Positions 74-13,840 of a DNA stretch of 59,324 nt are shown piece by piece (positions within the stretch are counted from its first letter, which is position 1; every line of letters starts with the position of its first letter). The notes under the pieces were generated by a model. It was given only the letters and a program-made list of their open reading frames with translations. It did no database searches and was not told where the DNA came from. The stretch covers positions 1 to 59,324 of the forward strand of contig JARQTN010000137.1 in NCBI GenBank assembly GCA_029976695.1, given 5' to 3'. This DNA comes from Lewinellaceae bacterium (GTDB taxonomy: Bacteria; Bacteroidota; Bacteroidia; Chitinophagales; Saprospiraceae). A program made the translations under genes and the position numbers.

Positions 74-2137
74 ATGCCCAGAATATATGCACTCCTCGCC
101 GGGATTACAGACTATCCGGGAAATCCCCTTTTCCAAAGCGTCGATGACGCCATCAGGATGAAAGAATACCTTGCATCCCTGCACACTTCATCAGGTAAAC
201 CAAAGATCAGGCTGCTGGTCAATGAAGAAGCGACGAGGGACGGGATCATCAATGCATTCAGGGAGCATCTGTACAAAGCAAAGGACGATGATGTGGTCCT
301 GTTTTATTTCAGCGGCCACGGTGCGCTGGAAAAAACGACGGATATCTTTCCGGATGAGCATGACGGTTCCATGGACTGCCTCGTTTGCTATTCGGGAAAA
401 AAGACTTCCACAAAGCAGCTCCTTTCCGGGAAAGAGGTCCGGTACCTGTTTCACAAAATGCCCCATAACCCGCATGTCGCTACCGTAATCGATGCCTGCC
501 ACTCTGGCGATGTGGTCCGCTCCGTGAAGGGTGAGGGGAACGGTGGCCCGATGATCAAGAGACTAAGCGGTTTTTTCAAGGAACGGCCATACAGGGACTT
601 CCTGTTTGCCGGTGACCCGGAGGTGGAGCGCAATGAAAATGGAAAGAAAAGGGTGTATATCCCGTTTAAAAATTCGGTCCACCTGGCGGCTTGCCTGTCC
701 AGTGAATCAGCTATGGAAAACCTGAACGGGGGCGTATTTACGACTTTCCTGCTTGCCCTGCTGGAAAACACCAAAGGCAATGTCACCTATATGGATATTT
801 CGCGATGGGCGAAGATGAGCCTTGTCGATGTGACGAGCAGCAAGCAGACGCCGAGGGTGAGTGTGCAGGGGGAAGGAAAAACAAACCAGTACTCTCCATG
901 GCTGAATATCGCCCGTGAAGGGGTACGCATCCCGCCGGGCATGATCGTGAATAACGGTCCGAACGGATGGTTCTTCTCACGCGGCACGCTACTGGGCATG
1001 CGGCCGGGCATGAAGGTCAGACTTCATCTGAATGATCAGGAGAGTGAACTCCTGGAGGTGGAGGCCGTTGAGATCGAGCGGTCAAAACTGAAGATCCCGC
1101 TGGACCTCATCAACCGGCTGGATTTTAACCGGCATTATGAGGGGGAATCTGAAGAGACAACGTACCGCAACCTGGATGTATTTGTCCATGCAATCGATGA
1201 TGATACCGCCAATTACCCGGAAGTTGAGGAGATCATTCAGGAGACGGAGAACGTCGTTTCGGCCACGGATGTGAAAGCCTCTTTTTACCTTAACTTCTTC
1301 AATGGATACGCTTACTTTACCCTGCCGGAGACGCCCTTCCGCCCTTTGGCGCGACAACTGAAACTGGGCAGCCCCGAATTTTCAGGGGGATTGGAACACC
1401 AACTCAAGGCACTTGTGAAGTGGAATCATTTCCTCACGCTTGAAAATCCGGGAGATACATTTGAGAAATGCCCGATCCGCGTGGAGATCAAAGTGAACGG
1501 CCAGGACTGGGCGGATATTACAAATGGCGTGGTCCGTATGCAACCCAGGGATGAGCGGCATGATTCACTCGGGTTGCTCCAGACCTATAAAATGCGGATT
1601 TCCAACCTGACGAAGGAAACGCTTTTTGTTGGCGTGCTCGCGCTGAATTCTGATATCAGCATCACGTCCAATCCCTTTGCTCAGCGGGTTGTGGAATTAA
1701 AGCCCGATGGTGAACAGGGCGCAACCAGGGAATTCTACGACCACAAGGAGAACGCACTTGCCTACACGGCGTTGGACGATTACAAGGAAGTCTACAACTG
1801 GAAGGAGGAATGGCTGTATTACAAGTTCATCTTCAACAATTTTGAGGATTTCACACAATCCATCGCGAACAGGGAATTCCTGCAGGCCCCGCTTGAGCCA
1901 CCTTACATGGAATTGGGCCTGAGAACGACTGGCAGGCAAAAGGGTGAGGGAGCGCTGGAAGACCTGAAGGAAGTGAAAAAGAAGTGGGGTACGTGCATCA
2001 CGCGCATCGAGCTTGCCAATTCGTCGTATGATCAGCCAACCGGGCAGTTGCTTTCCAATTTCAATGCCTACAGGGAAAGTGATATCGTCCGGCCATTTCT
2101 CGAGAAAGTGTATTCAACTCCGATTTTCCAAGATTAA
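74..2137 (+). CDS. Caspase-family (C14) cysteine protease
   Basis: 687 aa. The N-terminal ~270 residues form a caspase/metacaspase-type p20-p10 fold: the strand ending FYFSGHG gives catalytic His82, and the strand ending IDACHSGD gives catalytic Cys142. Both are intact, so an active protease is expected, cleaving after a basic or other specific P1 residue as metacaspases and ortho-caspases do. The rest (about 290-687) is beta-rich and not recognised; it may be a target-recognition or sensor region. There is no signal peptide or membrane span, so it is cytoplasmic. It is the first gene of an eight-gene run and lies 10 nt upstream of the gasdermin-like gene, the order expected for a protease that cleaves and activates a gasdermin (inferred). 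A perfect AAGGAGG at 36-42 lies 31 nt before the ATG, too far to set this start. The promoter is outside or at the very edge of the window. Confidence 0.9.
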   Translation: MPRIYALLAGITDYPGNPLFQSVDDAIRMKEYLASLHTSSGKPKIRLLVNEEATRDGIINAFREHLYKAKDDDVVLFYFSGHGALEKTTDIFPDEHDGSMDCLVCYSGKKTSTKQLLSGKEVRYLFHKMPHNPHVATVIDACHSGDVVRSVKGEGNGGPMIKRLSGFFKERPYRDFLFAGDPEVERNENGKKRVYIPFKNSVHLAACLSSESAMENLNGGVFTTFLLALLENTKGNVTYMDISRWAKMSLVDVTSSKQTPRVSVQGEGKTNQYSPWLNIAREGVRIPPGMIVNNGPNGWFFSRGTLLGMRPGMKVRLHLNDQESELLEVEAVEIERSKLKIPLDLINRLDFNRHYEGESEETTYRNLDVFVHAIDDDTANYPEVEEIIQETENVVSATDVKASFYLNFFNGYAYFTLPETPFRPLARQLKLGSPEFSGGLEHQLKALVKWNHFLTLENPGDTFEKCPIRVEIKVNGQDWADITNGVVRMQPRDERHDSLGLLQTYKMRISNLTKETLFVGVLALNSDISITSNPFAQRVVELKPDGEQGATREFYDHKENALAYTALDDYKEVYNWKEEWLYYKFIFNNFEDFTQSIANREFLQAPLEPPYMELGLRTTGRQKGEGALEDLKEVKKKWGTCITRIELANSSYDQPTGQLLSNFNAYRESDIVRPFLEKVYSTPIFQD

Positions 2138-2147
2138 AACCATAGAT

Positions 2148-2996
2148 ATGACAAGAATTTGCAAAAACAAGATCACAGACCATATTCGCGATCATTTTGG
2201 AGCGAATCCCCTGAAATCCCCTGAAGCCCGGATCAAGCCGATGTGCATGCTCGAAGTACAGCGGGATAAACAGGATTATTTGGGAGAGTTTGCGTTCCTG
2301 ATCGTGGGTGACATGCCTGAAGAGATCCCGGTCAATGAGGAACCAGTAGCCCCGATCTCGGATGAACGAAGCAATACGGTTGATTTCAAGATCGGTTTCG
2401 GGATCCTGGGCAATTTCCTGAAAGTGCTGGGTGTCGACCCGGCAGGTGTTGGGGCAGCAATGAAGAAGTCGAAAAAAATGGCATTTTCATTCAGTAATGT
2501 CCGCCGGCGGTTCATCGATCCGCTCCAGTTGGGCAAGGTACTCTCACAGCACGACATTATCGGGGACACGGATAATTTTATGCTGCATCCGGCGATCAAT
2601 GACAAGCGGATCAAGCTTGCTCTGATCACGGACATCATCGTATCGAACAATTTCTCGATCAGCACATTTACCGAGTCGGAAACAGAGGCCGAACTCGATG
2701 TGCCTCTTATTGCCAACGCTGTATCCAATTTCAACACTGAAGTGAAGGTGGAACGGAAATCGAACAATGAAGTGAAGTTCAACGCACCGAATGACCTGAC
2801 TTTTGCGTTCAGTGCGCTTGAGCTGAAGATTGATCCTGCATCGGGCAAATTTTCCCGGGGTGACTGGCTGAAAAACCTGAAATCCGCAACAGGTGAATCG
2901 CTTACCCTGGAAAACCTTGAACCAGGCAAAAAATATCACCTCGACCATGTGCTGATCGATGAAAGCAAGGAATACCCGCTCTTAATTGAATTCTGA
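2148..2996 (+). CDS. Probable bacterial gasdermin (pore-forming death effector)
   Basis: 282 aa from the ATG at 2148, 10 nt after the protease stop; a longer reading from 2013 would overlap the protease by 125 nt and is rejected. Features that match bacterial gasdermins: a cysteine close to the N-terminus (Cys5; family members are lipidated at such a Cys); a compact alpha/beta pattern with a small hydrophobic, glycine-rich stretch (about 80-105, GFGILGNFLKVLG) followed by basic residues and the strand MAFSFSNV (111-118); paired strands near 155-225 ending in the LTFAFSALEL strand (217-226); and a short C-terminal tail that could be the autoinhibitory peptide removed by proteolysis. No catalytic motif is visible. 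Family knowledge: cleaved bacterial gasdermins oligomerise into large inner-membrane pores and kill the phage-infected cell, and their genes sit beside caspase-like proteases. The identification is by pattern and context, not by database search; it could also be an unrelated hypothetical protein. Confidence 0.62.
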   Translation: MTRICKNKITDHIRDHFGANPLKSPEARIKPMCMLEVQRDKQDYLGEFAFLIVGDMPEEIPVNEEPVAPISDERSNTVDFKIGFGILGNFLKVLGVDPAGVGAAMKKSKKMAFSFSNVRRRFIDPLQLGKVLSQHDIIGDTDNFMLHPAINDKRIKLALITDIIVSNNFSISTFTESETEAELDVPLIANAVSNFNTEVKVERKSNNEVKFNAPNDLTFAFSALELKIDPASGKFSRGDWLKNLKSATGESLTLENLEPGKKYHLDHVLIDESKEYPLLIEF

Positions 2997-3000
2997 CCTG

Positions 3001-4839
3001 GTGAAGAGAAAAATCGTCATATTCTACCATGACAGCGATGGCAACCGGGATATCAGGGAATCGGACTACAAGCATTTTTACCGTCCCCTGAATCTCATGG
3101 TCAAGCCCATTCCCATGCTCAAACTTGAACCGGTTTCCTGTCCCGCCAGAGAGTGGTTATTTGATAAGCTCAGGGACCTCACCGGACCTGACGAGGAAGC
3201 TGATGAGCTTTACCTCCATTTCAGCGGGCATGGACAAAGCGAGGGAATCCCCTATGGTGACTGGGTTGTGTCAAACCAGGATTTTGCTGATATGGTCCGG
3301 CATCCAAAGGTGAAAAGCTGCTATTTTTCTTCCTGCCAGTCGGGGGACCTGGTCAGGCTTGTGAATGAAAACAGCATTCCTGTGGTGATCGGCACGGCAG
3401 GGCCGAATGACATCGAGAACCGGTATGCGATCGATTTTCAACTTGCCTTTTATGAAGGATTGATCCATTGCCGTTCCTTCGACAGCGCATTCAGTCAGGC
3501 ACGGGTACTCACCAAAAGCAAGCATGGAAAGGAAGTCCCGGCAAATGTTTTTGTGCGCGGGGAAGGGGCACTGGACGACATAGCAGAGGTTCATGTGAAT
3601 GCCTTGCAGATCGTCTTCCATGCCCCCAAATACGCAGAGGCCCATTTGATCCCGCCAACTTTCCTGGATGAACTCAGGAATATCTCTGATGGCAAGCCCG
3701 CAATCCTGGCATACAGCGACGATCCGGTCAGGGCAGCAGAATTTGAGGGTGCTTTCAAAGAATCCGGGTGGCAGCAGTACATGCACCTGGTCCATATTCC
3801 TGAAGGTGAAGTCGGAAAGATCAATGACCGGGGGGATATGGATCCTTTTCAGCTCCAGAATATTTTCCTGCTGCTGCTCCTGAGTCACCAGCACCTGCTT
3901 CCGGAGGAATTGCGCACACATCTTGCCAATCATGAAAACTGGGGACAGGAGCAGTACCGGATCTTCTGTGCACACAAGGATGGCATTGACCTCGCATCCG
4001 CCTTTGACAGCCATTCGATCAGGCAGAAGTTTGATTCCGGGCACATCTTTTCTTTCCACGACAATCCGGGGGAATTGCTTGATAACCAGGAGTTTGAAAG
4101 GTTGCTCCATGAACAGGAGATCGAGCTTTCGCTCCGGAAGAAAATCACGCTTGGTTTTGAGGTCCGCCCAAACAGGGAAGAAATGGCTGTGGTGTACGAT
4201 ATGCATAAAATTGCCTGTGTGTTCTTTGCGAAAAATGAGAATGAAAAGCTCGTCAATTTTCTTGTCAACTGGATCAGGGAAAAGGATGAACTGAAATTTC
4301 CCGTTGTGGTCATTGACAACCAGTATGATGCAGATCTGGAATTCATGTCTTCATTGAAAAAAGAAATTGTCCCACTCACAAAGAAAGAGCAGAATCTGAA
4401 CCTTCAGTTTATCGACCTTTTGCGCCCTGGCTGCATTATGATTTTCAGGTATTGGGAAGAAGAGCTGGAACCATGGCAGGATTTTATCAGCGAAGTCCTC
4501 GATGCGGTGTCGATCACTTCAAGTATTATCACGGAAAAAGAAAAACCACAGTCAAGTGCAATCTTCTTTCTAAGCAATTTTAGTCCGGATGAATTGCAGC
4601 TTCCGGGAAATGTGAAAGTGGAACGCTTTTCAAAGCCCACGCCGGTAAATGACGAAATACTTGAAACATGGCGAAGTGAATTCAGCCCGCTCAAGTTCAA
4701 TCCCAAAGTTTCACAGATGGTGCAGGCGGTTTCTGCTGAAATTGACCCGAACCGGTTTTCGGATTGCTGCCCGTCAGCGGTGATTGAATTTGTCTGTGAA
4801 AAATTCAGGATCCCTGCAAAACAGATTGTCGGATTATGA
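3001..4839 (+). CDS. CHAT-domain protease with long C-terminal extension
   Basis: 612 aa from a GTG at 3001, 4 nt after the gasdermin-like stop. A TTG at 2986 would also work and would overlap that gene by 11 nt; the GTG gives a natural first strand (MKRKIVIFY). Residues 1-190 are a CHAT (caspase HetF associated with TPRs) fold: LHFSGHG supplies catalytic His77 and CYFSSCQSG supplies Cys112, both intact. The remaining ~420 residues alternate hydrophobic strands and helices and contain at least two alpha/beta-looking segments (about 230-300 and 395-530), but I do not recognise them. It is cytoplasmic with no membrane span. A second active cysteine protease beside the caspase suggests either a relay of proteolytic activation or two alternative triggers for the gasdermin (inferred). 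Confidence 0.85.
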   Translation: MKRKIVIFYHDSDGNRDIRESDYKHFYRPLNLMVKPIPMLKLEPVSCPAREWLFDKLRDLTGPDEEADELYLHFSGHGQSEGIPYGDWVVSNQDFADMVRHPKVKSCYFSSCQSGDLVRLVNENSIPVVIGTAGPNDIENRYAIDFQLAFYEGLIHCRSFDSAFSQARVLTKSKHGKEVPANVFVRGEGALDDIAEVHVNALQIVFHAPKYAEAHLIPPTFLDELRNISDGKPAILAYSDDPVRAAEFEGAFKESGWQQYMHLVHIPEGEVGKINDRGDMDPFQLQNIFLLLLLSHQHLLPEELRTHLANHENWGQEQYRIFCAHKDGIDLASAFDSHSIRQKFDSGHIFSFHDNPGELLDNQEFERLLHEQEIELSLRKKITLGFEVRPNREEMAVVYDMHKIACVFFAKNENEKLVNFLVNWIREKDELKFPVVVIDNQYDADLEFMSSLKKEIVPLTKKEQNLNLQFIDLLRPGCIMIFRYWEEELEPWQDFISEVLDAVSITSSIITEKEKPQSSAIFFLSNFSPDELQLPGNVKVERFSKPTPVNDEILETWRSEFSPLKFNPKVSQMVQAVSAEIDPNRFSDCCPSAVIEFVCEKFRIPAKQIVGL

Positions 4840-4852
4840 AAATGTATGAATC

Positions 4853-5881
4853 ATGAAATACAAATTATTGGAACCCGGAGGCGGTCATGATCTTGAGGTG
4901 AAAGGAAGGGAGGTAAACAGATATACGTATACCTACCATTTTTCAGGGCAGGGGCTGGTGACTGCCCCGATAGCGGGAAGGAAGAGAAAGATAAGTACGT
5001 ATATTATCAAAAAACAGCTCATTGATGCTGTAAATGCAGCAATTGTAACAGGTCGCCCATTGCTGCTTAAAGGTGCACCAGGTAGCGGGAAGACGAAGCT
5101 TGCGGAAGCGGTGGCCAGCTATTTCTATCATGATGAAGCCTACAAGTATTATTTTGAATGGCATGTGAAATCAAGGAGCCGTGCTCGGGATGGTGGATAT
5201 GTATTTGATCATGTCGGACGCATGCGGGATGCGACGATTTCTGACTATGATAAAAAGGCAGGTAAACGTGCGGCGGACCCGGCAAATTATATCACCCTTG
5301 GCGCCCTCGGATATGCCCTGCAAACAAGGACGGCCCCCGGCTACAAACCGATCCTGCTTATCGACGAGATTGACAAGGGAGATATCGACTTCCCGAATGA
5401 TCTGCTGCTCGAGCTTGACGAGATGCGATTTAAAGTCAATGAAATGGACAATACGTATATCGAGGCACACAAGGATAAGAAGAGCAACGAGCAAATCAGG
5501 CCACTGGTATTCATTACGAGCAATGATGAGCGGGAACTTCCTCCGGCCTTCCTGAGAAGGTGCCTGTATTATTACATCCCGGAGTTTGAGGAACCTTTGC
5601 TGCGCCGCATTGCGGTATCGAAAATGAAAGAGTTTTACCAGGATCATAAAAAGAAAGCGCCAGCCGGCCTTGACAAAGAGAAGGACAATCCTCTGGATCC
5701 ATTTGTGCGGAAATTCATGGACCTCAAGGACACAGCCACGGGATCAAAACCGCCATCCACGAGTGAAATGCTGGATTGGTTGAAACTCATCACTTTCGAG
5801 ATAATTCATAAAGGAAGGAGACTTGAAGACCTGGTTGACGATGGGGATATCCAGCGCATTACCTTGAAATTAAACGCCTGA
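4853..5881 (+). CDS. MoxR-type AAA+ ATPase
   Basis: 342 aa. It carries a complete AAA+ core: Walker A GAPGSGKT (74-81), Walker B ILLIDEID (about 167-174, Asp171-Glu172), sensor 1 FITSND (Asn224), an arginine pair at 235-236 (FLRRC) that can act as arginine finger, and a sensor-2-like helix near PSTSEMLDWL. MoxR ATPases remodel partner proteins and work with a vWA-domain protein; the next gene, starting 2 nt downstream, is such a partner. In conflict systems described by Aravind and colleagues, MoxR-vWA pairs gate effectors such as caspases and CHAT proteases, which fits this operon. A 40-50 residue N-terminal extension before the core is not recognised. The start ATG at 4853 lies 13 nt after the CHAT gene. 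Confidence 0.92.
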   Translation: MKYKLLEPGGGHDLEVKGREVNRYTYTYHFSGQGLVTAPIAGRKRKISTYIIKKQLIDAVNAAIVTGRPLLLKGAPGSGKTKLAEAVASYFYHDEAYKYYFEWHVKSRSRARDGGYVFDHVGRMRDATISDYDKKAGKRAADPANYITLGALGYALQTRTAPGYKPILLIDEIDKGDIDFPNDLLLELDEMRFKVNEMDNTYIEAHKDKKSNEQIRPLVFITSNDERELPPAFLRRCLYYYIPEFEEPLLRRIAVSKMKEFYQDHKKKAPAGLDKEKDNPLDPFVRKFMDLKDTATGSKPPSTSEMLDWLKLITFEIIHKGRRLEDLVDDGDIQRITLKLNA

Positions 5882-5883
5882 TC

Positions 5884-7026
5884 ATGGTTGGTCCGCTCTG
5901 GGGTTTTTTCCAATTGGTCAGGAGCAGTGGGCATATTCCGCTGTCGATCGATCAGTATTTCTTTTTTGTGCATGCCCTTCATGCGGAAGCATTCAGGACT
6001 GTCAGTACCAAGGCTGACCTGCTTGCATTGATGAAGATCTTCTGGTTGAATGAACCAGGGTTTGAACCTCAATTCAATGCTTTATTCAATCGCTTTTTTG
6101 ATGACAAGGTGCTGTGGAAGATCCTTCCGGATCAAAAAACAGAAAATGAAGCCGGGGACGATGGTCATGATCATGGGCAACAGGAAAAGACCAGCGGGCC
6201 GGAAGCCCCAGCGCCAGATCCTTCTGCCAATGATGATCTGAAAAAGGATCCCGGTAAAAAGGCCGACCATACACAGGATGCCCGGTCGGAGATTGAACTT
6301 ATCCTGAAGGATTCGACAGCAGGGGAAGGGAAAGAAGCACCTTTCAAGAGGGAACTGGCGCATGCCTTTGCCCTTTCGGACAAGTCGATTATGCCATTCG
6401 ATGCGCGGAAGTTCGCCCAGCGCCTGAGGAGGAAAGTGGAAACGGCAGAACAGGTCAGCTCGGACAGGATCAACGCCCCGGAGATGGTCCGCCAGTTTGT
6501 GGAACTGGGGTTTATAGAGGAGATTATCTATGAACTGGAAGATGCAAGTTATTCAAATATCGTGCTGTTTTCTGACCGTTTTGGTTCCATGCTCGCATAT
6601 GAATATCTGGACATGCAGTTCCGCGATAGCCTGAGAAACATTCCTCACTGTACGTTTGAGCACTATGCCTTTTACAATTTGCCCGTTTCCTCCGAAGACA
6701 GGAGGGGATTTTTGTTCACCCCTGCTGATGCGAAAGGAGGGGAAATTTCATCAGACCGGCATCCCTGGACCCGAAATACCTGGTTTTTTATCCTGTCGGA
6801 TGCAGGGGGGCACTCCGGAACCGTGAACAGGCAGAGGATCATCCGGACAAACCAGTTCTGGACTTTTCTGACCGGGATTTCAGAGTTTGTTTACTGGATC
6901 AACCCGATACCTGCAGCGTACCTGAATGATTGTACCGCAAAAAGGCTGCAAATGAAAATACCGATGATCACGCCTGAAATGGCGAACCTGAATCAACTGG
7001 TCAAGGAGGCCAGGACAGTCCGATAA
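5884..7026 (+). CDS. vWA/CoxE-like partner of the MoxR ATPase
   Basis: 380 aa. The N-terminal ~80 residues look like the helical region of CoxE/vWA proteins (LVRSSGHIPLS, then helices around an LNEPGFEPQFNALF segment). Residues ~85-150 are a charged, low-complexity linker rich in Asp, Lys, Pro and His. From ~225 a vWA Rossmann fold begins: NIVLFSDRFGSML occupies the MIDAS position, but the DxSxS motif reads D231-R-F-G-S, so the first Ser is replaced by Phe and metal binding may be weakened. A later strand FFILSDAGG corresponds to the second vWA acidic loop. It probably bridges the ATPase and the effectors (inferred). It starts 2 nt after the ATPase stop and ends 3 nt before the next gene, so the two are almost certainly co-translated. 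Cytoplasmic. Confidence 0.78.
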   Translation: MVGPLWGFFQLVRSSGHIPLSIDQYFFFVHALHAEAFRTVSTKADLLALMKIFWLNEPGFEPQFNALFNRFFDDKVLWKILPDQKTENEAGDDGHDHGQQEKTSGPEAPAPDPSANDDLKKDPGKKADHTQDARSEIELILKDSTAGEGKEAPFKRELAHAFALSDKSIMPFDARKFAQRLRRKVETAEQVSSDRINAPEMVRQFVELGFIEEIIYELEDASYSNIVLFSDRFGSMLAYEYLDMQFRDSLRNIPHCTFEHYAFYNLPVSSEDRRGFLFTPADAKGGEISSDRHPWTRNTWFFILSDAGGHSGTVNRQRIIRTNQFWTFLTGISEFVYWINPIPAAYLNDCTAKRLQMKIPMITPEMANLNQLVKEARTVR

Positions 7027-7029
7027 CGT

Positions 7030-9627
7030 ATGATTTCGCAAGGAATGCCACATATCAGTCCAATCAGAAAACAGCGCATGGAACGCTTTGCGCCTTATGT
7101 GGCCGTGTTGCCCTGGTTTAACAGTGATGTACTGCACAAACTTTACATGAATGTGTTTGATTCCCAGCGGTCGTCCGGGGAGGTGAGAGCCTACAGGGAA
7201 AGGGCAATTACGTGTGCGGACCTCATGCATTCGCCCAGGGTGAAGCGTGTGGCGTACAATGTGTTTATCCTGGATGGTGACCTCCAGGACCAGCTCCGTC
7301 TCAAGATGCAGCAGGAGCCATCCACCCACGGGAAGATTGCCGAATTTATGATCTCCTATGCATGGCAGTGCAGGTCTCATTTTCTTGGCCCGAAATACGT
7401 TGAATCGTACCTCATCGAAGGAAACCTGATCCTTGATCCCTCGAGGGAAGCAGAACGGATCACAAAACATATCGTCAACAGGTTCAACAAGGCCGGCAGT
7501 TTCAGTGAAAAGAAGAATGCCGTCGCGTACCATTTAAACCTGCTGAACCGTGAGGGCGTCAAGGCCGAGGACAACGAGATCATGAAATTCCTGAAAGGGT
7601 ATCAGTCATTTGACCCGGATTCCGGAACGATCCCTCAAGAATGGAGATCCCTGAGGCAGGAAGACACAGGTTCTGCCGAAACGGTCAGGATCAAACTGCC
7701 AGTGCACATCAGGGATTCCATCCTGAAGGAGATCCGGGCAAACCAGGCACCCGTGGCAGAATCCGTAAACTTGCATGCCCTGTACGCTGGGGTGGATCAA
7801 TATATGGATGAACGCATCCGTCCCCTGCAGGCTCCCGTGAATGATGCCCGGATGATCGCCCGATATATTGAGGGAAATATTGCCCAAAATGCAAAACACA
7901 TTCAACGCGTTGTTTTATCGCAAGATGCGACACGTAAAAACCTGGTTGCGCTGATCAGAGAAATTGGTCATAAAATGGAGGCCGGGGATACCTTCCTCTT
8001 TTATTTTGCTGGATATGGAGGTGTTGAAAATTCACCAGGAAGCAGTGAACAAATGATTCAGAATCAATCTGTCCAAAGCAATATTCCGGATTCGTCAGGG
8101 GAGGAAGCAGTGATTATCTGCTATGATTCATTTGTCGAAGAGCCGCCGTTCGCTCTTAAAGAATTGAATGATCTGTTGAATGAATTTCCTGTAGAATGTA
8201 CGGCGTTGATCATCCTGGATTGCGGTTTCCATCAGAATAAGTCCGGCATCGAAAGCAGCGGATATACATCCCGGTCCCTGCCATGGATTGTCGATCCACG
8301 CCCGCCAGGTTCATTCCTGGCAGGGAATGAAGAAGGTCCGGAAACAAAACCAAAATATCACGGAGCTGTCCTGTTTGGATCGGATCCGGTTAACGAGGAC
8401 AGCGATGCATATGAAGATTCAGATCATGGATTTTTCACCAGGGGCCTGATCGGGGCCCTTGAAAAATCCGGGAATGCGATCAGTTACCGGGAGTTGTTAG
8501 CCGGACCACAGTCAATCGCATGGGAAAGCACCCGTCAGTCCGCTGATTTGCAGCCAATCCGTTCATTCGACACTGCCCGCATATTCCTTGACGGCATACT
8601 GGTCCAGCGTCGGGATCCCATCCAGTCTCTCATCCGGGAGGTGCAGGAAAGTCAGGCAAATCGCCTCGACCTGACAGGCATGGGGCTGTATGAGATCCCT
8701 AAAGAGGTATTTGAGCTTAGCCATCTGACCGAGCTTGAGATTATGAATAACCAGATCACCGAATTGCCTCCGGAGATCGAGAAACTGGAAAACCTCCGGA
8801 TCCTGAAGCTTTCTGCCAACCGGATCAAAGCTCTCCCGCCCCAGATCTGGAACCTCGAAAACCTTGAGATCTTGCTTGCCGATGAGAACGAGATCAGTGA
8901 GATCCCGATCCCGTCCACGTTTCCTGAAAGTCTTGCCCAATTATCCATGGCAAGGAATCACATCAAGTTTTTGCCCTGGCAATTCGCGAGATTTGATGGA
9001 AAAAGACAGTATGATTTTACCGGGAATCCAATGATAAACATCCCCCAGGAGTTTTTGGAAGGGATCGGCCAGGACCTTGGTACCTATATTGATGGTTTTG
9101 CACCAGTGGGGGACAAAGGCCGACTCCGATTGATCTGTGCCGCAGGACTTGATTATGAACAAAGACTTGAATATCTCGAGGAGGAATTACGCATGATCAG
9201 TTCCATTTTTTCCGGAAGCGATGTCGAGGTTCGGATCATGATGAACCCAAATGCAGTGGAGCTCTCCCAGTTCCTTTACCAGTACCACCGCCATCTTTCC
9301 ATCCTCCATATCGGGGCCTTCAGGATGGATCAGCTGCAGGATGGAAACGGGGTGATCCATGAAATGCGACCGGTGGAATGGGAGGCATATTTTAGAAGTG
9401 TCATCCCGGAGAAAACCTCGACACCGCTCTTGTTCCTGAATGTGTGTGACGGGGCCGAGATCATCCGGCATTTAAGCCCTTCATATTTCCCGCAGGCAAT
9501 TGGCCTGCCCGGGAAGGTGGATGATGCTGTTGCGTTTGAGGTCGCAAAATCATTTTATGGGGCCCTGGCTGAAGGAGATTCGGTCGGAGAGGCATTTGAC
9601 AAGACCAGGAGAAGAATCGCAGATTAA
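7030..9627 (+). CDS. Pseudo-caspase + leucine-rich repeats + degenerate CHAT protein
   Basis: 865 aa, multidomain. Residues 1-~235 are helical and unrecognised; since they directly follow a MoxR-vWA pair they may be the docking module of a third component of such systems (inferred). Residues ~245-520 have the caspase fold (NLHALYAGVDQY start; TFLFYFAGYGG), but the catalytic His position is Tyr329 and the Cys position reads LDCGF, with Gly399 where the Cys should be. Residues ~535-680 hold about five leucine-rich repeats of the LxxLxxLxLxxNxIxxLP type. Residues ~695-865 form a CHAT fold in which His is replaced (HIGAF, Ala763) while Cys806 is kept (FLNVCDGA). Thus both protease folds look inactive, and the protein is better read as a sensor/scaffold or decoy with an LRR ligand-binding surface. 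It lies 3 nt after the vWA gene and 5 nt before the next. Confidence 0.82.
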   Translation: MISQGMPHISPIRKQRMERFAPYVAVLPWFNSDVLHKLYMNVFDSQRSSGEVRAYRERAITCADLMHSPRVKRVAYNVFILDGDLQDQLRLKMQQEPSTHGKIAEFMISYAWQCRSHFLGPKYVESYLIEGNLILDPSREAERITKHIVNRFNKAGSFSEKKNAVAYHLNLLNREGVKAEDNEIMKFLKGYQSFDPDSGTIPQEWRSLRQEDTGSAETVRIKLPVHIRDSILKEIRANQAPVAESVNLHALYAGVDQYMDERIRPLQAPVNDARMIARYIEGNIAQNAKHIQRVVLSQDATRKNLVALIREIGHKMEAGDTFLFYFAGYGGVENSPGSSEQMIQNQSVQSNIPDSSGEEAVIICYDSFVEEPPFALKELNDLLNEFPVECTALIILDCGFHQNKSGIESSGYTSRSLPWIVDPRPPGSFLAGNEEGPETKPKYHGAVLFGSDPVNEDSDAYEDSDHGFFTRGLIGALEKSGNAISYRELLAGPQSIAWESTRQSADLQPIRSFDTARIFLDGILVQRRDPIQSLIREVQESQANRLDLTGMGLYEIPKEVFELSHLTELEIMNNQITELPPEIEKLENLRILKLSANRIKALPPQIWNLENLEILLADENEISEIPIPSTFPESLAQLSMARNHIKFLPWQFARFDGKRQYDFTGNPMINIPQEFLEGIGQDLGTYIDGFAPVGDKGRLRLICAAGLDYEQRLEYLEEELRMISSIFSGSDVEVRIMMNPNAVELSQFLYQYHRHLSILHIGAFRMDQLQDGNGVIHEMRPVEWEAYFRSVIPEKTSTPLLFLNVCDGAEIIRHLSPSYFPQAIGLPGKVDDAVAFEVAKSFYGALAEGDSVGEAFDKTRRRIAD

Positions 9628-9632
9628 GACAT

Positions 9633-10952
9633 ATGGCCGCAAAACCACCAACCAGGGATATATTCAACTACCAGCTCTACCATGCCGACGGAGCAGACAG
9701 GGAAGCCTTGCTCGCCTGGAAATTATTGCCCGGAGAGCAACCCGAAGGTGGCATGCGCATCCCGCGCGACTTGCGCAACAACTGGATCATGATGTATGAA
9801 TCAGGAAATGCCGAAAGTGTACTCGAGGAAGTATACAACTTTATTCCCGAAACTGAAACGGCATTGAAGGGAACGGCGGGGCAGTGGCTGGAAGAATTAG
9901 ACCGGCAAAAAAAACGATCCGGTGGGGCGATGCTTCCCAGGTCCGACAGGTCGGTCAGGCAGTATCACCGGAACTTTCTGGAACTCATTACCAATCCGGC
10001 GTACCAGGAAAAAAATTCGATTCCGGAAATCATGGAAGCAGGCCTTGGCAGACAGATCCGTGCATACGTTGAAAGCAGGTTGTCTGCAGGATTGCACAAT
10101 GAGTTATTTGAAGTACTGAAGAATTACCTCGATGATGTTGATCCAAAGCTGTTTGTCAGGGTTGTGCTTTTGTACAGGGATTTCCGCACGATCCAGTATG
10201 AACAGTCTCTAAAATCATCCATGGAACTTAACCTGGAGGACTGGGCTCGTGAAGTCAGGAATTCCATTCGGGAAGTGCTCGATTTTTTGCCAAAAACAGG
10301 TCGTGACATCACATCCCTCTACCCTGAGATCAAGGCATCAGGGGAGAGGCAGGGAGTGGTTTCTCCCATCGCATGGGTGTATATCAAGGGGACGACCGAA
10401 ACAAAACGATACGAATTGAACCCTGACCTTCGTGACATCGCATATGCTTTTGGGCGCAAGCTTGCAGAAACCGGTTTCGGCCTGGTGATCAGCAGCTACA
10501 GGGGGGTGAATGCAGCTGTCATGACTGCCTATATCCAACGGAGCAATTATCTGAAAAATCCGCGCAAGGGATTCATTAAAATACTGGCCGAGAGTGACAT
10601 CCCGGTCATGATGAAGGCAAACCCTGCCCTTGATGAGGATATAGAAGCTGCAGACCTGGTCCAGAACAGTGATGCAGACGATTTCGCAAATGCCTGTGTG
10701 CTGATCGGGATGACAGGGAAGATGCAATACACTACGCGCAGTTTCCTTGAAAAAGGGAAGCCTGTATTCCCGGTTTACGATGCATTTTCTGATGAGGAAG
10801 CAGATACGCTCAGACGAAGTATCACGCCATACGCGAGGACTGTCTTTGGCAATGATGTGGTTCTTCAGGCCATTGAGGGGCCGTACAAGGATGCCATTGA
10901 CCGGGTCATTGATATCCTTCAAACCAGGTTTGCCGGACAAAGGAAAGAATAG
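9633..10952 (+). CDS. EAD11-like adaptor with SLOG-like nucleotide-sensor domain
   Basis: 439 aa. The N-terminal ~130 residues are unrecognised. Residues ~140-222 resemble effector-associated domain 11 (EAD11), a small helical homotypic adaptor: an IRxxVE helix, the VVLLYRDFRTIQYEQSL helix in place of the typical LSxRYNRLxREERLG, then EDWAREVRNSIREVLDFL in place of the EExxxERNRIxxALLELI helix. Residues ~245-435 have a Rossmann-like SLOG/LOG pattern: IAWVYIKGTT, FGRKLAETGFGLVISSYRGVNAAVMTAY (glycine-rich second strand and helix), and a late strand with GKPVFPVYDAF. SLOG domains bind or process nucleotide-derived signals; TIR-like folds are an alternative. In EAD systems, identical EADs on two proteins link sensor and effector; I could not find a second EAD11 copy among the neighbours. 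Cytoplasmic; 5 nt after the previous gene. Confidence 0.6.
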   Translation: MAAKPPTRDIFNYQLYHADGADREALLAWKLLPGEQPEGGMRIPRDLRNNWIMMYESGNAESVLEEVYNFIPETETALKGTAGQWLEELDRQKKRSGGAMLPRSDRSVRQYHRNFLELITNPAYQEKNSIPEIMEAGLGRQIRAYVESRLSAGLHNELFEVLKNYLDDVDPKLFVRVVLLYRDFRTIQYEQSLKSSMELNLEDWAREVRNSIREVLDFLPKTGRDITSLYPEIKASGERQGVVSPIAWVYIKGTTETKRYELNPDLRDIAYAFGRKLAETGFGLVISSYRGVNAAVMTAYIQRSNYLKNPRKGFIKILAESDIPVMMKANPALDEDIEAADLVQNSDADDFANACVLIGMTGKMQYTTRSFLEKGKPVFPVYDAFSDEEADTLRRSITPYARTVFGNDVVLQAIEGPYKDAIDRVIDILQTRFAGQRKE

Positions 10953-10987
10953 ATGATTCCGCTTACGACCTGAATCAAATAATTGCT

Positions 10988-13840
10988 ATGACAAAGGTAA
11001 TCTCCTCTTTTTCGAATACGACAGGCGACCTCCAGAGCCTCGATGACGAGTATGTCGGGCTGGTCCGCTTTTTCAGCAAACCGGAAATCAAATCCAGAGT
11101 GGATTTCGAGCCGCATCTGAACGAGGATCTGGATACATTGACAAGTACGATCCTCGATGCGAAAAAGGAGATGCGCCTGTTCCATTTTAGCGGTCATTCC
11201 CGGCAAAGCGGGCTTGATTTTCCGGAAGCAGAATTTGACGCTCGGCATGTGGTCCGCTTTTTCAATACACTCAACCAGGAAGAGAACAACCTCCAGTGCA
11301 TGTTCATCAACGGGTGTGAGAATGCGGAGATCATCCGCAAACTGAAAAAGGTACCTGTCGTGATCGGGACAAAATCAAAGATCCAGGATTCAGTGGCACA
11401 GAAGTTTACGCAGGACTTCTTCAGCTCACTGATCTCGGGGAAAAGTTCCTACCGACAGGCTTTCCTTGATGCCCTGGCTGCGCAAAGGTCTCCCGATTAC
11501 AAGGTTTTTGAGCCCCTGAGGGGTGAGGGTGCCGCAGATCAACTGACCGGGGATGAGGAACTCAACCAATACTACATGGTCGTGAATGATGACGAGGTGG
11601 CAAATCAGAAATTCCCCTTCAGGAAAGGTCCGGCGAATTTTGCAAAATACATCTTTATCATGCTCATTCTCCTGGCACTCATCTTCGGTATCCTGTTCAG
11701 GGACCAGCTTCTTGGCATGGTGCGCGGATATACCTGTCCCGATTGGGATGATGACAGCAAATGCCGGATGCTCGTGGCAGATTTCAATTACAGCGGAAAT
11801 TTCCCCGATATCAATGAACTCATCGCCGAGGAAATAAAGGATAATGAAGAAGTGAATCCTTACATAGAAGCAAAACACACTGCCGAGTTCAAGGATTACC
11901 TGAAGCGGGAAAGCGGTCGGGAGGAGCTTCACAAGCTTTGTGGCTATGAATTCAGCCTGACAGGTGATGTGGTGGACACTGATGGCGGGAAGTATAAAAT
12001 GGAACTCGACCTCTTCACAGACTATCCGGATTTCCGCGATGAAGAATCCGAGACGATTGAAATTGGCAGTACGGATGAACTCAAACAGATGGTACAGACG
12101 GTCGGGCCCCAAAACAGCGATCATTTCCTGTTGAACAGGCTATGCATCGCTTGTGCCCAAAAGCGTGAAGAACTGATCCCGGTGATCGAGAAAAGCATGA
12201 AGGAATACAAGAAAACAATGGCCTCTGCCGAATCCTATCAAAACCTGAACATGGAAATGTTTGCCCTCCACAAGAGGAGGGGAGATCAAGAGAAGATGCT
12301 GACAGTTCTCTCGAATATTGCAGATGTCGGCAACAACGATTACGTGCTTGGCGCTCTTGAAAGGACCGTCCGGCTGAACAAGGACCTCGAAATGGTCCCT
12401 GAGGCTTTCCGGAACCAGAGCAGGTATATCGATGAAACGGAGATGCGCCTGGAGAATCCCGCTGCGTTCAAAATGAACTTTCCTGAAGATGCGTATGTCC
12501 GGAACCAGTTGAAAATGAGGCTAAACCGCGGGAACTATGTCCTGGCCCATCCCGAGGAGTTGAGGGATCACTTGCGTGCCGCGCTTACCGACTTTCGCAT
12601 GCTGCAGGAAGCAAATTTCAGGGGTGGCGATTACCGTGAACAGATCCGAAAGATCCTGGAATTGCTTGAAGGCGGTTCCGTTACCCCGGCACCTGAAATG
12701 CAGGAATTGACGGGCCTGGTCCGGGATCAGAACGGCAGACCGATCGCGGGTGTGCAAATACGTTATGAAGGTGGGCAGGTTGCCTCCGGGGCAGATGGCC
12801 GCTTTTACCTTGAGTTTCCGGAAACTGATCAGTTGACCGGAAAAACAATCATCCTCCGGAAGGAGGGATTCCATCCTGTAAGGTTTCGCATCCGAGATGT
12901 TGAAGAGCTCAAAGATGTGCGGATGGAAAGGCAGGAAGAGGTGCCCGAAACACGCCTATACACATTCAAGGGGGAAGTTCGGGATTGCGATCACAAGGGG
13001 ACTGTACTGGAAGAGATCTATATCGATGGGGTGTCCGTGCCGTTGAGCAACTCCGGGTACATGAGGCGGATTGAAGCAACGCCCGGGACCACGGTACAGA
13101 TCTCGCTTCCCGGAGGTTTCCATTTTCAAGGCGAGGAAAGCATCCAGGTGGTTTTGGGCGACGAGCCCGGGTTTGACCGGACGCTGCATGTATATTCCGA
13201 ACCGGCAAGATATTCATTGTATGGCAAGGTTGTCGGAAATGGTGTCGGGGTGCCAGGTGCGGCAGTCCAGCTTGCTGGCACAAACACAGCAACCAGAACC
13301 AGGAGGACAGGCGATTTTGTGCTGTCAGCCGAGGTGGATATTTGTTCGGAACTTGAAATCAGTGCCCAGGGGTATGATGCAGCCACACTCCTCATAAAGG
13401 AACATCTTGGGCAAGGCCCCCGGGTGGACATCGGGGAGGTAGAGTTAAAAAAACTTGCCCCCCAACCAGATCCGGACACCGAGGTAAAACCTGAGATCGT
13501 TTTGCAGACCTTGAATGTGCAGGGGGATGATTACAAAAGCCTGCTGACAGGACTCAGGAGGGCAGGCTACGCGGTTTCAGATAAATCCAGCATGTATGAC
13601 AAGAAGCCCCCTGGTTTTCCGGATAAAAATACGGTTCTATATATGGATGATGCGTATGCGGACGATGCGAAAAAAGTGGCACGTGCTATGTACAAACTGG
13701 CAAATGTAGAGTTTGATATCAGGAAGTGGAAACCCTCAACAATCGAGTTGGAGAGACTCAAGGCTTTGAGGAGAGCCAGGGACTTGCAAACCGGACGAAA
13801 CCGGATCTATGTCCAGTATATGATTCCGTATATCAAGTAA
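10988..13840 (+). CDS. Membrane-anchored CHAT protease with carboxypeptidase-regulatory-like domains
   Basis: 950 aa. Residues 1-~200 are a CHAT protease domain: LFHFSGHS (His70) and MFINGCENAE (Cys110) are both intact. A single membrane helix follows at about 218-237 (KYIFIMLILLALIFGILF). The cytosolic side should be the N-terminus, because the flanking segment before the helix is basic (FRKGPANFAK); the ~710-residue remainder would then be periplasmic. This part contains a Cys-bearing alpha/beta segment (about 248-370), a helical region (about 400-570), a carboxypeptidase-regulatory/CNA-B-like beta sandwich (about 573-650, LTGLVRDQNGRPIAGVQI), a second one (about 745-825, LYGKVVGNGVGVPGAAVQL), and a C-terminal ~80 residues resembling LytR_C (periplasmic) domains. 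It could sense envelope damage and signal through proteolysis inside (inferred). Last gene of the run, 35 nt after its neighbour. Confidence 0.8.
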   Translation: MTKVISSFSNTTGDLQSLDDEYVGLVRFFSKPEIKSRVDFEPHLNEDLDTLTSTILDAKKEMRLFHFSGHSRQSGLDFPEAEFDARHVVRFFNTLNQEENNLQCMFINGCENAEIIRKLKKVPVVIGTKSKIQDSVAQKFTQDFFSSLISGKSSYRQAFLDALAAQRSPDYKVFEPLRGEGAADQLTGDEELNQYYMVVNDDEVANQKFPFRKGPANFAKYIFIMLILLALIFGILFRDQLLGMVRGYTCPDWDDDSKCRMLVADFNYSGNFPDINELIAEEIKDNEEVNPYIEAKHTAEFKDYLKRESGREELHKLCGYEFSLTGDVVDTDGGKYKMELDLFTDYPDFRDEESETIEIGSTDELKQMVQTVGPQNSDHFLLNRLCIACAQKREELIPVIEKSMKEYKKTMASAESYQNLNMEMFALHKRRGDQEKMLTVLSNIADVGNNDYVLGALERTVRLNKDLEMVPEAFRNQSRYIDETEMRLENPAAFKMNFPEDAYVRNQLKMRLNRGNYVLAHPEELRDHLRAALTDFRMLQEANFRGGDYREQIRKILELLEGGSVTPAPEMQELTGLVRDQNGRPIAGVQIRYEGGQVASGADGRFYLEFPETDQLTGKTIILRKEGFHPVRFRIRDVEELKDVRMERQEEVPETRLYTFKGEVRDCDHKGTVLEEIYIDGVSVPLSNSGYMRRIEATPGTTVQISLPGGFHFQGEESIQVVLGDEPGFDRTLHVYSEPARYSLYGKVVGNGVGVPGAAVQLAGTNTATRTRRTGDFVLSAEVDICSELEISAQGYDAATLLIKEHLGQGPRVDIGEVELKKLAPQPDPDTEVKPEIVLQTLNVQGDDYKSLLTGLRRAGYAVSDKSSMYDKKPPGFPDKNTVLYMDDAYADDAKKVARAMYKLANVEFDIRKWKPSTIELERLKALRRARDLQTGRNRIYVQYMIPYIK

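Follow-up and report, generated by a model that had tools for sequence, protein, structure and literature searches.

A predicted CHAT protease joined to a membrane span and a receptor-like outer half closes a gasdermin operon in Saprospiraceae

Here we describe p8, the gene that ends a gasdermin cell-death operon in a Saprospiraceae bacterium. Its 950-aa product carries, in a single chain, a CHAT protease domain, one transmembrane (TM) helix and an outer half composed of a FlgO/TolB_N-like domain, an alpha-solenoid, probably three transthyretin/CnaB-type (TTL/CnaB-type) beta domains and a LytR_C-like tail. This architecture is well supported. We give an even chance to the reading that p8 is a single-pass inner-membrane receptor-protease, with its N-terminus inside and its C-terminus outside, which starts a caspase/gasdermin cascade from the outside in. 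The finding suggests that gasdermin death in bacteria can be connected to signals that arise beyond the cytoplasm. To our knowledge the trigger of most bacterial gasdermin systems has not been established, and an envelope receptor physically joined to a gasdermin operon by a protease offers a defined, testable trigger point.

The operon and the p8 gene

The window, that is the whole stretch of 59,324 nucleotides analyzed, contains eight closely spaced genes on the + strand, p1 to p8, at positions 74-13840. They encode, in order, a caspase (p1, Peptidase_C14, 74..2137; PADLOC match 3.2e-33) that retains its catalytic SGHG/DACHSG, a bacterial gasdermin (p2, 2148..2996, likely start ATG 2148; PADLOC bGSDM match 2.4e-59), a second CHAT protein with its SGHG/SSC dyad retained (p3, 2986..4839; FSGHG, SSC), a MoxR-type AAA ATPase (p4, 4853..5881; AAA_5/AAA matches plus a weak bpMoxR match), its CoxE-like vWA partner (p5, 5884..7026), a pseudocaspase-LRR protein with GYG replacing GHG and a degenerate CHAT (p6, 7030..9627), a protein without a family match (p7, 9633..10952) and p8 (10988..13840). 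The gasdermin gene p2 thus lies next to the caspase gene p1, the adjacency of bGSDM and protease by which gasdermin defence is recognized. The p4-p5 pair is of the kind present in MoxR-vWA ternary conflict systems, with a sub-threshold vWA match (VWA_CoxE at 2.5e-4, below the cut-off, in the p5 orthologue of genome G146); no VMAP, iSTAND, FtsH or beta-propeller third component was recognized in p1-p8 with Pfam and NCBIfam. p8 follows p7 by 35 bp, and a convergent mlaD-like gene lies 16 bp past its stop. Because the contig starts at base 1, further genes may lie ahead of p1 outside it, and since a promoter/terminator scan of the operon gave signals no higher than in shuffles, the operon limits rest on gene spacing. 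The degenerate CHAT of p6 lacks its second His, and the G146 version of p6 carries two such pseudocaspases within 1694 aa. Elsewhere in the window's own genome (L002 241-3404, G000:C136), a caspase and a CHAT protein (PF12770, 45 bits) form a second, divergent pair.

The earlier note had correctly placed p8 at 10988-13840 as one open reading frame. Full-length p8 is found in three of about 400 Saprospiraceae genomes: the window's, G146 (JANQQI010000126.1) and G107 (JANQHF010000037.1). The orthologues align over the whole length at 34% and 25% identity, so p8 is a real gene, and their presence in two other genera rules out a chance open reading frame. In G146 the order p1-p2-p3-p4-p5-p6-p8 is kept in a syntenic gasdermin operon missing p7, and p8 begins 35-67 bp after the preceding gene in the window and G146. 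The G107 copy lies at a contig end, where its neighbors encode a FAD-binding oxidase and a peptidoglycan-binding protein, in a genome (98% complete) without gasdermin. A phylum-wide search of 395 genomes returned no p8 beyond the window's, a plasmid search only its CHAT part, in Haliscomenobacter, and viral contigs none. With gasdermin (bGSDM) found in 21 of 199 Saprospiraceae genomes, p8 adjoins two of the 21 gasdermin loci and is therefore not a constant member; since the complete extended operon of G075 (L112) does without it, p8 is an add-on that the operon does not need. A GH25 lysozyme gene (L028 2-466) flanks the p8 locus of G146 and a PG_binding_1 gene (L029 1-412) that of G107; both of these peptidoglycan-related genes are cut by contig ends and their position may be chance.

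The CHAT domain and the outer half

The N-terminal domain (residues 1-213, 10988..11626) is a divergent CHAT by tests other than the Pfam score. Pfam CHAT (PF12770) gave no match to p8 at E<1, and a p8 orthologue scored 13.7 bits against a cut-off of 24. Three comparisons bear out the CHAT protease of the earlier note. Profile-profile alignment (hhalign) of p8 with CHAT proteins gave 99.5%, E 1e-22. A three-sequence p8 profile matched PDB 8tl0 (SAVED-CHAT) at 1.2e-9, aligning SGH and NGC with GH and NAC. Refolded alone by AF2 from six sequences (pLDDT 81.1, pTM 0.76), the domain compared with 8tl0 at Z 23.1 over 188 residues (rmsd 2.7); its next fold matches were legumain and caspases at Z 14-16, and Foldseek matches also include separase and Csx29. 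His70 (11195-11197, SGHS motif) and Cys110 (11315-11317, NGC motif) are present throughout the three orthologues and the six aligned CHAT rows, and correspond to the p3 dyad. Sequence and model together strongly predict a protease with an intact catalytic dyad.

Beyond the CHAT domain lies a single TM helix (residues about 218-240, 11639..11707). It contains the sole strongly hydrophobic stretch of p8 (219-237, Kyte-Doolittle 2.62), whose position is conserved in both orthologues, and the AF2 model places this stretch within a helix at 218-244. Both the membrane helix that the earlier note put near 218-237 and the ~710 residues beyond it hold. That description of the protein was incomplete, having overlooked the two domains that follow the helix: the juxtamembrane FlgO/TolB_N-like domain with its CPxWxxDxxC motif (residues about 247-375, 11726..12112) and the TPR-like alpha-solenoid with invariant Cys386/Cys389 (about 376-567, 12113..12688). 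A profile of the former, A4, connects p8 with EAD11-TM proteins and FlgO-containing cyclases. It finds the FlgO-positive cyclase L051 at 2.3e-5 as well as EAD11-TM proteins, and in L051 the domain homologous to p8 247-375 is Pfam FlgO at 25.0 bits against a cut-off of 22.6. p8 therefore has the arrangement of TM, FlgO/TolB_N-like domain and helical repeats. The TM-to-solenoid profile gave no significant match when searched against PDB sequences, and we dropped naming the solenoid family from fold matches, as their Z of 9-10 falls below that of unrelated helical repeats.

The two carboxypeptidase-regulatory-like folds recorded earlier are real, both being CarboxypepD_reg matches (1.1e-11, Pfam) at residues 570-650 (12695..12937) and 741-825 (13208..13462); the count is probably three, since residues 656-737 between them (12953..13198), without a Pfam match, are modelled as a similar sandwich. 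In a fold search, CarboxypepD domain 2 found its closest solved fold in the SusC NTE domain, which is periplasmic, at Z 13.5. For the tail (residues 846-950, 13523..13837), LytR_C is the sole Pfam match, at 13.2 bits against a cut-off of 22.2, so the label given to it earlier holds only as a sub-threshold resemblance; the tail is present in this genome only, as neither the orthologues nor 80 relatives have it, and wall binding through it is not relied on. Cys259, 386, 389, 667 and 786 do not vary among the three orthologues. A full-length AF2 model from three sequences was poor except in the beta and helical parts, with pLDDT 48 in the CHAT and FlgO parts.

Membrane orientation and exchange of heads

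Protease inside and receptor-like part outside, as the earlier note had it, is the orientation that p8 probably takes in the cell. Among 23 relatives that share the TM and outer domain, 19 have more K+R on the N side of the TM, one has less and three are tied (19 of 20 informative relatives, two-sided sign test, p 4e-5, the relatives not being independent). The sole exception is the G107 orthologue, with one K/R before the TM and seven after. In some relatives class III cyclases, which need cytosolic ATP, occupy the N-terminal place before the same TM-FlgO/TolB_N-TPR outer part. The FlgO/TolB_N-like domain alone is no proof of export, as it is also found in TM-less proteins (L053, L062).

The outer half occurs behind CHAT, EAD11 and cyclase heads. 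Genome G163 (L066) encodes a 1039-aa EAD11-TM-CPxxxxxxC-FlgO/TolB_N-solenoid protein with five CarboxypepD_reg domains, whose aligned TM-to-solenoid part is 21% identical to that of p8. Its gene is convergent with that of an EAD11-CHAT protein (dyad VHFSGHG/FNACYA), which starts 2 bp after an Endonuclease_NS gene. Effector-associated domains have been described as adaptors that pair homotypically (Kaur et al. 2020, 2021), so by analogy the CHAT protein would be recruited to the EAD11 receptor. Our best model is that p8 is the fused, single-chain form of such an EAD11-TM receptor and EAD11-CHAT protease. EAD11 is absent from the window's genome and from G107, and numbers 2-14 in G146, G163, G075, G029 and G083; it is thus missing from two p8 genomes out of only three, which may mean that the fusion takes the adaptor's place. 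Split and fused forms together illustrate a way in which bacteria may connect a single receptor with different outputs of cell death, in parallel with animal death receptors, which are linked to caspases through death-fold adaptors. In many Saprospiraceae, EAD11-TM-FlgO/TolB_N-TPR proteins of about 550 aa adjoin proC-like and often rmuC-like genes (L067, L068, L069, L070, L071, L072, L079) and resemble core genes.

Proposed signaling and alternative readings

Proteases adjoining gasdermin in Saprospiraceae are caspases at seven loci, CHAT proteins with EAD11 and/or TIR in G083, G138 and G005, and trypsin-like proteases with or without EAD11 in G204 and G029 and, by context, in G119 and G156. 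In G083, G138 and G005 the CHAT protein is the sole protease beside gasdermin. CHAT can therefore replace the caspase in this position, which makes gasdermin or the caspase a plausible substrate of p8. The earlier proposal that p8 acts on the gasdermin draws indirect support from these three loci; against it stand the gasdermin-free G107 genome and the caspase p1, the nearer candidate for cutting gasdermin in the window. The minimal gasdermin-CHAT pairs (L122 9492-11148 in G083, L124 13741-15891 in G138, L125 2326-4449 in G005) have EAD11-CHAT, TIR-EAD11-CHAT and TIR-CHAT partners. Another unusual partner is an LRR-Roc-COR protein adjoining gasdermin at L120 1582-5462 (G069:C49).

In the outside-in cascade that we propose, the FlgO/TolB_N-like domain, solenoid and beta domains would bind or monitor something in the periplasm. 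A periplasmic change, probably the clustering of neighboring receptors, would gather CHAT domains on the cytoplasmic face and thereby activate them. The activated CHAT would cut a partner from the same operon, most likely caspase p1 or gasdermin p2, and the cell would die through gasdermin pores; a threshold or further inputs may come from the MoxR-CoxE pair and the pseudocaspase-LRR protein. That the envelope part senses while the protease acts inside was already suggested in the earlier note: the layout is supported, and sensing is plausible from the swapping of the outer half between heads. More tentatively, and leaning somewhat against it, we consider p8 a counterpart of death receptors with a built-in initiator protease, in which the gasdermin pores would be triggered by a ligand outside the cytoplasm or by damage to the envelope rather than by a phage product in the cytosol, and other heads would re-wire the same half to nuclease or cyclase outputs.

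The signal could also run the other way, with cytosolic sensors of the operon (the LRR protein, MoxR-CoxE, p7) activating CHAT and the envelope half serving only to tether the cell-death apparatus to the inner membrane or wall. The operon is indeed rich in cytosolic sensor and switch genes, gasdermin works at the inner membrane, where insertion must occur, and TTL/CnaB domains and LytR_C-like tails are often structural or wall-binding parts. A mere anchor, however, could do without a multidomain part of 700 residues that is exchanged among cyclase, EAD11 and CHAT heads in the usual pattern of receptors, and we consider this reading rather unlikely. Unlikely, too, is that p8 is a general envelope-stress receptor, its protease controlling gene expression or other targets, which was captured by the gasdermin operon and stands outside its death output. 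The G107 orthologue, with an oxidase and a peptidoglycan-binding protein rather than gasdermin or caspase as neighbors, would fit such a role, as would the stable proC-like and rmuC-like neighborhood of EAD11-headed relatives; its force is reduced by p8 closing the same gasdermin operon, at close spacing, in the window and G146.

Two further readings concern the CHAT domain itself. Given the pseudo-enzyme p6 in the same operon, the domain could be a non-enzymatic docking partner for the CHAT/caspase domains of p1, p3 and p6, like decoy caspases, but with both catalytic residues retained in every orthologue and aligned CHAT row this is highly improbable. A reversed topology, protease outside and receptor part in the cytosol, is scarcely credible: the charge bias of G107 and the TM-less FlgO-like proteins point that way, against the absence of a signal peptide ahead of CHAT, the N-in bias of the other relatives and the ATP that cyclase heads need inside.

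Comparison with known systems

Bacterial gasdermin defence operons (Johnson et al. 2022; Wein et al.; cited in PMC12799240) share with the window the placement of bGSDM beside caspase-like, trypsin-like or CHAT proteases. The window's operon differs in also holding the MoxR-CoxE pair and the pseudocaspase-LRR protein. We know of no described gasdermin operon with a membrane-spanning protease that carries an envelope part, and the literature searched, a limited open-access selection, contained no CHAT-FlgO/TolB_N-CarboxypepD receptor in a gasdermin operon.

The theme of p8 is already known, since membrane-linked caspase systems were predicted earlier. EACC1-caspase System 4 (Kaur et al. 2020, PMC7159879) likewise pairs a clan CD protease with a TM sensor; TM helices are present in at least one third of its caspase proteins, and in some of these an extracellular PBP domain follows. 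That sensor is encoded by an EACC1 gene of its own, and the caspase ends in variable effectors (PMC7159879), whereas p8 carries its CHAT and its FlgO/TolB_N-solenoid-CarboxypepD receptor in cis, with gasdermin as the likely executioner. Among p1-p8 we recognized no separate EACC1 TM gene preceding the caspase, the sequence upstream of p1 being cut by the contig end.

SAVED-CHAT (PDB 8tl0) and the TPR-CHAT/Csx29 of type III CRISPR have the same protease domain. In SAVED-CHAT, ligand-driven assembly turns CHAT on, 8tl0 being the activated filament, and a protease cascade follows downstream. They differ in sensing nucleotide or RNA in the cytosol, in place of which p8 has its envelope half. Closest in layout are the EAD11-TM-FlgO/TolB_N-TPR(-CarboxypepD) proteins of Saprospiraceae, which share the TM and outer half, with CarboxypepD repeats in the G163 copy too, but their head is an EAD11 adaptor and their protease belongs to another EAD11 protein. 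Canu caspase-nuclease and nuclease-protease pairs (PMC12799240), in which a protease activates a neighboring executioner, parallel the EAD11-CHAT and Endonuclease_NS genes of G163; unlike p8 they have no membrane receptor and their executioner is a nuclease. The G163 locus (L066 5335-10208, G163:C83) is possibly a protease-activated nuclease system with a membrane receptor that carries the p8-type outer half.
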